Assembly (NCBI GenBank): GCA_022796475.1
Contig: JAAWIS010000002.1
Location: 30,720-94,719 of the forward strand
Length of the DNA: 64,000 nucleotides
Origin: Lachnospiraceae bacterium
GTDB taxonomy: Bacteria; Bacillota; Clostridia; Lachnospirales; Lachnospiraceae
Direction: 5' to 3'
Within the stretch, counting starts at the first letter, position 1, and each line of letters begins with the position of its first letter. The position numbers were made by a program, and so were the translations under genes. Below, piece by piece: positions 3,100-54,051 of this stretch. The notes under the pieces are model-generated. The model was not told the origin of the DNA, did not search any database, and was given only the letters and a program-made list of their open reading frames with translations.

Positions 3100-3124
3100 T
3101 AAAGTTTGAATCTCTTTTCTCTTC

Positions 3125-3296
3125 TTTAAGTAGCTCCCCATCTTGCCAGATGACAGTCATATAGTTCTTTGCCATATGCCCAGGTAAGAAAATCCGGCCT
3201 TTTCCTGCCTTCGGCGCTTTTTCCTTTCCACTGCCATCCCCTGTGCCCGTCACATCCGGCAGCATACTCATAATCAGCGCAACCTCTACTTTTCCG
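3125..3296 (-). ncRNA. lysine riboswitch (L-box) aptamer
   Basis: minus strand AAAAGTAGAGGTTGCGCTG..GAGTATGC..GGGGATGG..AAAGCGCCGAAGGC..CTGGGCATATGG..GACTGTCATCTGGC..GGGGAGCTACTT; P1 AAGTAG/CTACTT; conserved L-box blocks. Confidence 0.93.
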
Positions 3297-52297: not shown

Positions 52298-53137
52298 TTA
52301 GCGCTTTACTGCTGTTGTGGCTGAATCCGGTTTCTCTGGTACAAAAATCTCTCCTTCATAGACCTCCTGGGCAGGGCCTGTCATAAATACATGGCCGCTT
52401 TCCGGATCCCAAAATATAGAAAGTGTTCCTCCCAACAGTTGGACTTCCACCTTATTTTCCGTATAGCCCATTAAAATTGCAGCCACTGCACTGGCGGCAG
52501 CTCCCGTGCCACAGGCATAGGTTTCCCCGCTTCCCCGCTCCCAAACCCGCATTTTAATATGGTTCCGATCAAATATTTGAATAAATTCCGTATTGGTACG
52601 ATCCGGAAACCGTTTGTGATGTTCGAAGGCTGGTCCTATATCTTCTAAATTTAAAGAATCAATGGAATCCATAAAGTAAACGGCATGGGGATTTCCCATG
52701 GAAATCCCTACAAATTCGTATCCTTCCCCACTTACTGTAATTGGCTCCGGCACTTTGGATATCTGCTGCGGAATCCCCATATCTACAGTTACTGTCCCAA
52801 CCTTTCCTTCCTCTATCTGAAAAGATAAGGTTTTAATCCCTGATTTCGTTTCCACAGTCATAGGATTCTTCACTGCAATCCCATGATCGTAGGCATACTT
52901 GCCTACACATCGGATTCCATTTCCGCACATTGCCCCCTCTGATCCGTCAGCATTATACATAATCATCCGGCAGTCAGCAATTTTAGAAGGTGCAATCAAA
53001 ATCAGCCCGTCTGAACCAACTGCCGTTCTTCTGGGACTTATATACTGTGCTGTCCAGGAAGGATCCCTTACTGTTTCTTCAAAACAATTCACATATACAT
53101 AGTCATTGCTGATTCCATGCATTTTGGTAAATTTCAT
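52298..53137 (-). CDS. dapF: diaminopimelate epimerase
   Basis: MKFTKMHGISNDYVYVNCFE, YNADGSEGAMCGNGIRCVGKYAYD, ERGSGETYACGTGAAAS; start 53137 after GGAGG. Confidence 0.97.
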   Translation of the reverse strand: MKFTKMHGISNDYVYVNCFEETVRDPSWTAQYISPRRTAVGSDGLILIAPSKIADCRMIMYNADGSEGAMCGNGIRCVGKYAYDHGIAVKNPMTVETKSGIKTLSFQIEEGKVGTVTVDMGIPQQISKVPEPITVSGEGYEFVGISMGNPHAVYFMDSIDSLNLEDIGPAFEHHKRFPDRTNTEFIQIFDRNHIKMRVWERGSGETYACGTGAAASAVAAILMGYTENKVEVQLLGGTLSIFWDPESGHVFMTGPAQEVYEGEIFVPEKPDSATTAVKR

Positions 53138-53174
53138 ATTTTCCTCCGTTTTGTTGTACTTTATTACATGTGTT

Positions 53175-53345
53175 GGGGTCAAAAGGTGTTTTGACGTTCA
53201 CAGGTACCCTGTGAACGTAACCGCATATGCCCATTTAAAATCGCCTGGCGGCGATGGGGCATATGCTTTTCCCCCATAACCGTACTGGCTCATGACTAAT
53301 CAGCGTGGTGATTAGTCATGGTATAAACAGTAACGTTTTGACCCC
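53175..53345. repeat. 171-bp multi-hairpin inverted-repeat element upstream of dapF (family D)
   Basis: terminal IR GGGGTCAAAA/TTTTGACCCC; H1 ACGTTCACAGG-tac-CCTGTGAACGT; H2 GCATATGCCC/GGGCATATGC with inner ATCGCC-tggc-GGCGAT; H3 CATGACTAATCA-gcgtgg-TGATTAGTCATG. Confidence 0.8.
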
Positions 53346-53508
53346 TCTGATACCGGATTGCTCCGTACTTTGTACTCCCGCAATCCTCAAAAACATTCAA
53401 AATCCGCCCTGATCGGGCTGCTTTTTCAAGTTTTTGGCGGGTCCCAAGTTCAAAAATCCTCTTGCAGGCAAGCTTGCATCGGATTTAGACCTTTTGCCCC
53501 TGGTATCA

Positions 53509-54051
53509 TTACATTAAGCTTAATACCATCTGGGCCGTTTCCACCATATTCGTCCCGCTGTCCATACTGCATTTTTGTATATAACGGTGAGCTTCCGACT
53601 CTGTCATATTATTCCGTTCCATTAAAATAGCTTTTGCTTTCTCTATTAAAATTTTATCTTCTTCATTTCGTTTTCTGGGCTGAGATTTCCGACGCCTTTT
53701 TTTCTCCATCTGAGCCTGAACCATCATTTCAAGCGTATTTACTAAATCCCGCACTTTAAGGGGCATGGGCAGACAAAGGATCCCTCTTGGAACAGGGCGG
53801 CTCCAGCGGTCTGGAGATGAAATCAGCAGCATTTCCACAGCAGAAGGAAGACAGTCCCGCATTTCTTCATACATCATGTCAGCGAATCGAAAACCGCTGA
53901 CAACGATCCCATACTCCCAGTCACTGCAGGTATTTAGTACCTGAGAAGCTGTTGTGCAGACCGCCACTACCTGAAATCCGCTCCGCATCAAAATATTTTT
54001 AATACTTTTCCCATCATCTAATTTCGAAAATGCTACTACAATGTTCGTCAA
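53509..54051 (-). CDS. ANTAR-domain response-regulator-like RNA-binding protein
   Basis: C-terminal EEDKILIEKAKAILMERNNMTESEAHRYIQKCSMDSGTNMVETAQMVL is an ANTAR domain; pseudo-receiver N-terminus; TTG start. Confidence 0.93.
   Translation of the reverse strand: MTNIVVAFSKLDDGKSIKNILMRSGFQVVAVCTTASQVLNTCSDWEYGIVVSGFRFADMMYEEMRDCLPSAVEMLLISSPDRWSRPVPRGILCLPMPLKVRDLVNTLEMMVQAQMEKKRRRKSQPRKRNEEDKILIEKAKAILMERNNMTESEAHRYIQKCSMDSGTNMVETAQMVLSLM

Follow-up and report, generated by a model that had tools for sequence, protein, structure and literature searches.

A nested pair of MITEs, one of them an RF01699 element, in the ANTAR–dapF junction of a Lachnospiraceae bacterium

The junction between an ANTAR-type regulator gene and dapF in a Lachnospiraceae bacterium was analyzed within a 64,000-nucleotide stretch of contig JAAWIS010000002.1 (the window) and holds a nested pair of MITEs, a 193-bp RF01699 element interrupted by a 139-bp MITE, both ordinary in kind. 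The copies, TSDs and empty sites of these elements, and the ends that the MITE shares with IS66, were observed directly, and we are highly confident that this nesting, with probable mobilization in trans by an IS66-type transposase as part of the explanation, accounts for the locus. Two ordinary insertions, the order of which can be read from their nesting, replace the exotic-looking multi-junction element that an earlier note had described at 53175–53345.

The insertion site at the ANTAR–dapF junction

Both genes lie on the minus strand (coordinates from the list of open reading frames, names from the earlier note), the ANTAR-type regulator gene (53509–54051) upstream of the insertion and dapF (52298–53137) downstream, separated from the RF01699 element by 31 nt. 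The start codon of dapF, ATG at 53137–53135, is supported by the sequence and by an alignment of relatives and agrees with the 38-bp distance to the four-stem segment given earlier. In 7/7 same-genus relatives aligned, the ANTAR–dapF junction was found without either element, and a junction comparable to that of the relatives was left when both elements and one copy of each TSD, 345 bp in all, were cut from the window.

In the proposed course of events, the RF01699 element would have entered the junction first, duplicating TGTAA and bringing in the palindrome GGGGTCAAAAGGTGTTTTGACCCC with its 3' end; the MITE would then have entered this palindrome, duplicating GTTTTGAC, so that the split palindrome would appear as a terminal inverted repeat around the three hairpins of the MITE itself. 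That RF01699 came first and the MITE second follows from the nesting. Since dapF closely follows the ANTAR gene when the junction is uninterrupted, the insertions may weaken co-transcription of the two genes, and may affect dapF.

The segment had also been considered a possible regulatory leader of dapF. A cis-regulatory RNA leader, or an intercistronic control element (attenuator or riboswitch-like) following the ANTAR gene, would be in keeping with the very stable fold, with a position between two same-strand genes and upstream of dapF, and with the listing of the neighboring RF01699 as a structured RNA. It was nevertheless rejected because of the empty sites in all seven relatives and is very improbable; the same sequences also occur at dozens of unrelated sites, no intrinsic terminator or terminator-like site was found, and a promoter/terminator scan gave nothing of note. 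Elsewhere in the window, a lysine riboswitch aptamer was matched at 3123–3296 on the minus strand (110.8 bits).

The four-stem fold and the split palindrome

The four-stem stretch folds far more stably than expected, with an RNA minimum free energy of -83.8 kcal/mol on the plus strand, where shuffled sequences averaged -51.7 (z -6.8, 0/200 shuffles), the same z of -6.8 for RNA of the minus strand, and a z of -7.9 when folded as DNA. The three arms described previously are all present, as supported by the fold and by alignment of copies. Hairpin 1 (53194–53218; 11-bp stem, loop TAC) is a TIR-derived palindrome, GTTCACAGG..CCTGTGAAC, whose outermost 2 bp on the left fall within the TSD; hairpin 2 (53223–53266) has 10 bp with an inner 6-bp stem; hairpin 3 (53291–53320) has 12 bp and a hexaloop and, in the window copy, includes a compensated pair relative to the consensus (G-C to T-A). 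The fourth stem is formed by a perfect 10-bp repeat, GGGGTCAAAA at 53175–53184 and TTTTGACCCC at 53336–53345, with no further exact match to the 10-mer in the window. The four stems are therefore real, but they belong to more than one element.

This repeat, which had been read as the terminus of an element, is part of a target palindrome. Other RF01699 copies carry an uninterrupted GGGGTCAAAACACCTTTTGACCCC, as at G000:C100:12672-12707, which identifies both the apparent 10-bp terminal inverted repeat and the competing hairpin TCAAAA-ggtg-TTTTGA as halves of one older palindrome, GGGGTCAAAAGGTGTTTTGACCCC, opened by the MITE. In the window, the left part of this palindrome (GGGGTCAAAAGGT|GTTTTGACCCC, 53175–53187) belongs to the RF01699 3' end and is completed by 53335–53345. 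The sequence of the competing hairpin is present as the earlier note had it, but is not a separate feature. A single mobile unit spanning 53175–53345 and bounded by the 10-bp inverted repeat would explain why that repeat is perfect and closes the fold; with the palindrome intact in other RF01699 copies, such a unit is scarcely credible, and it is refuted by the copies elsewhere, which start and stop inside it (at about bases 27–165 of a 181-base query). The proposal of a folded mobile element was thus correct as to mobility, as seen from multiple copies, TSDs and empty sites, but not as to extent, the mobile unit being 53196–53334.

A multi-way-junction RNA, the remaining proposal, gained little compensatory support. 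Across 27 aligned MITE copies, 95.6% of cells were paired over 47 pairs, with 3 double changes, of which the window copy has one, and paired columns varied less than unpaired ones (0.035 vs 0.068). Such a pattern is expected anyway of young copies with long palindromes and does not count as evidence for an RNA role of the MITE.

The 139-bp MITE and its probable relation to IS66

The genome of the window (170 contigs, 3.77 Mb) was searched with 53170–53350, giving about 40 scored copies of 84–96% identity, so that the segment is not single-copy. Strong matches fell nearly all within query bases 25–170, and most spanned 27 to ~165 of 181, corresponding to the MITE at 53196–53334 (to which no strand is assigned). 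The terminal repeat has the consensus GTTACTGTTCACA(GG/CC) and is present at both ends of most copies; its pattern gave 84 matches against 1 for a reversed control pattern. Copies read with their flanks defined a full unit of ~145 bp, with GTTACTGTTCACAGG at one end and GTTACTGTTCACACC at the other. The 139-bp window copy lacks the first 6 bases, GTTACT, of its left end (plus orientation), where the TSD abuts the shortened end, and closes with CAGTAAC on the right.

An automatic boundary caller found a perfect 8-bp TSD in 14/28 MITE calls (a duplicate and a partial copy included) and 7/8 matching bases in 2 more, whereas flanks paired from different copies reached a maximum of 7/8, and this in 0.13% of pairs. 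The window copy is not among these calls, as its truncated end caused it to be missed; its two TSD copies, 8 bp GTTTTGAC at 53188–53195 and 53335–53342, were read by eye. A clean TSD was absent in nearly half of the called copies, which are either old or damaged, or reflect boundary-calling errors. The element is short, non-coding, multi-copy and dispersed over unrelated sites, with TIRs and a TSD of constant length, and shorter derivatives comprising barely more than the two ends also show 8-bp duplications. A 33-base exact pattern had no match in the genome collection.

Several variants of the MITE and of its ends were seen. Mini-elements of ~24–60 bp in the genome of the window (L061:1261, L062:2539, L066:1359, L080:591) consist almost only of the two IS66-type ends, and all four show an 8-bp or near-perfect duplication; one copy in the same genome (L019:1501-1647) has the loop of the third hairpin inverted, ACCACGCT for AGCGTGGT. 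Genome G009 of the same genus shows a large expansion, with ~173 exact copies of GTTACTGTTCAC some of them lying in another MITE family that has the same type of end, and some in minimal palindromes, GTTACTGTTCACACGTTCACAGTAAC.

The MITE could be related to IS66 through its ends. Scanning viral contigs for GTTACTGTTCACAG gave one complete element, a 2,272-bp IS66-family (ISBst12-like) element (L304:695-2966) whose ends, GTTACTGTTCACACC / GTTACTGTTCACAGG, are identical over 15 bp to both MITE ends. It is flanked on both sides by the 8-bp TSD TAAATGGA and encodes a 556-aa protein with a PF03050 (DDE_Tnp_IS66) match of 1.2e-13. The combination of identical 15-bp ends and an 8-bp TSD points to IS66 as the likely transposase family. 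The window MITE differs from this complete element in having no transposase, a length of 139 bp and three internal hairpins, and only the terminal ~15 bp are common to both. The host of the complete element is a large viral contig, IMGVR_UViG_3300024999_000040 (148.7 kb).

IS66-family transposase loci within the genus include one in genome G003 (L214) with ends GTTACCATTCAC / GTTACTATTCAC, and relatives of its protein in named Lachnospiraceae genomes (e.g. Schaedlerella arabinosiphila) carry GTTACTATTCACAG at either end, with 8-bp duplications such as CTATTTTA, CTTTTTTC and ATCAAAAA. No complete IS66 element with the exact MITE ends was found in the genome of the window or in the genus; the closest ends within the genus, those in G003, read GTTAC(C/T)ATTCAC. 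PF01609, PF00872, PF12762 and rve loci were also considered for an autonomous partner of the MITE and none fitted, the partner type being found through IS66. ISDge4, from the ISBst12 group of the IS66 family, has the ends GTGACTACTCAGCA / GTAACTGCTCAGCA and an 8-bp duplication (PMC12898284); the 8-bp target duplication and GTNACT-type ends are common to this group and the MITE, and the complete relatives found here carry a PF03050 transposase. Judging from these shared ends, the MITE is probably IS66-driven; most likely an ISBst12-type IS66-family transposase, which would recognize GTTACTGTTCACA(G/C) ends, mobilizes it in trans. Literature searches on the TIR sequence, on IS66 MITEs and on MITEs with Lachnospiraceae or Rfam returned nothing relevant; exact ends and a TSD are now given for this putatively IS66-driven MITE group.

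RF01699 copies as mobile elements

The RF01699 (Clostridiales-1) element occupies 53169–53508 on the minus strand and measures 193 bp after discounting a 147-bp insertion (the MITE plus one TSD). The Rfam covariance model matched 53348–53508 on the minus strand with 129.6 bits against a gathering threshold of 48, so that the Rfam comparison suggested earlier did return a match, but to another element directly beside the four-stem segment. The TIRs of the window copy are TGATACCAGGGGCAAAAGG (from 53508) and TGTGTTGGGGTCAAAAGG (from 53169), and the 5-bp TSD, TGTAA on the minus strand, lies at 53509–53513, where it includes the stop codon (TAA) of the ANTAR gene, and again at 53164–53168. Other copies in the same genome run beyond the Rfam model, with the uninterrupted palindrome followed by CAACATCA; copies with this tail extend from TGATACCAGGGTCAAAAGG to CCTTTTGACCCCAACATCA and have a TIR of about 19 bp (TGATNNNNGGGTCAAAAGG). 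The match to the window element is therefore direct, but the Rfam entry is an sRNA gene and its model omits the terminal palindrome, whereas here the matched part belongs to a longer mobile element with TIRs and TSDs.

A perfect 5-bp TSD, mostly TNNNA, was present in about 17 of ~21 RF01699 copies drawn from several genera (42 rows in total, as almost every copy was read on both strands), compared with 3% for mismatched flanks. Matches above the Rfam cut-off occurred in 24/60 genomes, sampled as one per genus of the family; several genomes had at least 30, and one had 38/38 scored candidates. The same ends with matching flanks were also found in an internally deleted copy, in end-to-end solo forms and with one unrelated filler. 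RF01699 thus behaves as a MITE, with TIRs, a constant TSD, dispersed copies and, for the window copy, empty sites. This is a new point, and no paper describing RF01699 as a MITE was found in the literature searched.

In its original catalog, RF01699 was listed as an sRNA and rated "probably" RNA (Weinberg et al. 2010, PMC2864571). An RNA role is possible, and this rating, together with high-scoring covariance-model matches to copies in many genera, would suit a genuine trans-acting sRNA gene riding on a mobile element, its structure kept for RNA function. TIRs and TSDs at the ends, their retention by internally deleted copies, and a copy number of dozens per genome make such a gene rather unlikely. 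Another candidate, which we put forward only tentatively, is a structured mobile family widespread in Lachnospiraceae that is not an sRNA gene and whose conserved fold would be kept since a folded single strand or transcript is needed for spread, by analogy with bcr1. The bcr1 and other repeats of B. cereus are 100–400 bp long, occur in dozens of copies per genome and show mobile-DNA features and a TTTAT motif (PMC6542083). They resemble the window elements in size class, copy number and mobile-DNA features, and the TTTAT motif parallels the 5-bp TNNNA duplication of RF01699; they differ in sequence and in host group.

The TIR, 5-bp TSD, empty sites and high copy number of RF01699 are the marks of a transposable element in what is annotated as an sRNA gene, and automatic annotation of gut Lachnospiraceae genomes therefore probably calls many transposon copies sRNA genes. 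Further evidence should probably be required before RF01699 is annotated as an sRNA gene.

An autonomous RF01699 partner was not found among the DDE_Tnp_1, IS256, rve, IS66 and IS1595 loci of the genus, or by TIR pairing in two genomes (G064, G053) and in viral contigs; this absence says little, as several families, including Tn7-like elements, were outside the search. End pairs 1.2–1.9 kb apart in G064 proved to belong to separate elements with ordinary genes lying between them, and RF01699-type end pairs on viral contigs had no TSD.

Some further arrangements of RF01699 sequences were noted. Apparent tandem arrays with constant spacing occur at G064:C4:37397-37842 (146 bp in G064), G013:C16:50363-50800 and G013:C26:11921-12356. 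Copies in two genomes (L107:699-924 in G003 and L159 in G008) contain an extra internal segment, ..CGACCG.A..GGAG.., possibly another nested repeat. In G009, a different filler of ~165 bp (L158:1130-1300) has RF01699-type ends and a TATTA duplication and represents a second MITE family with those ends.
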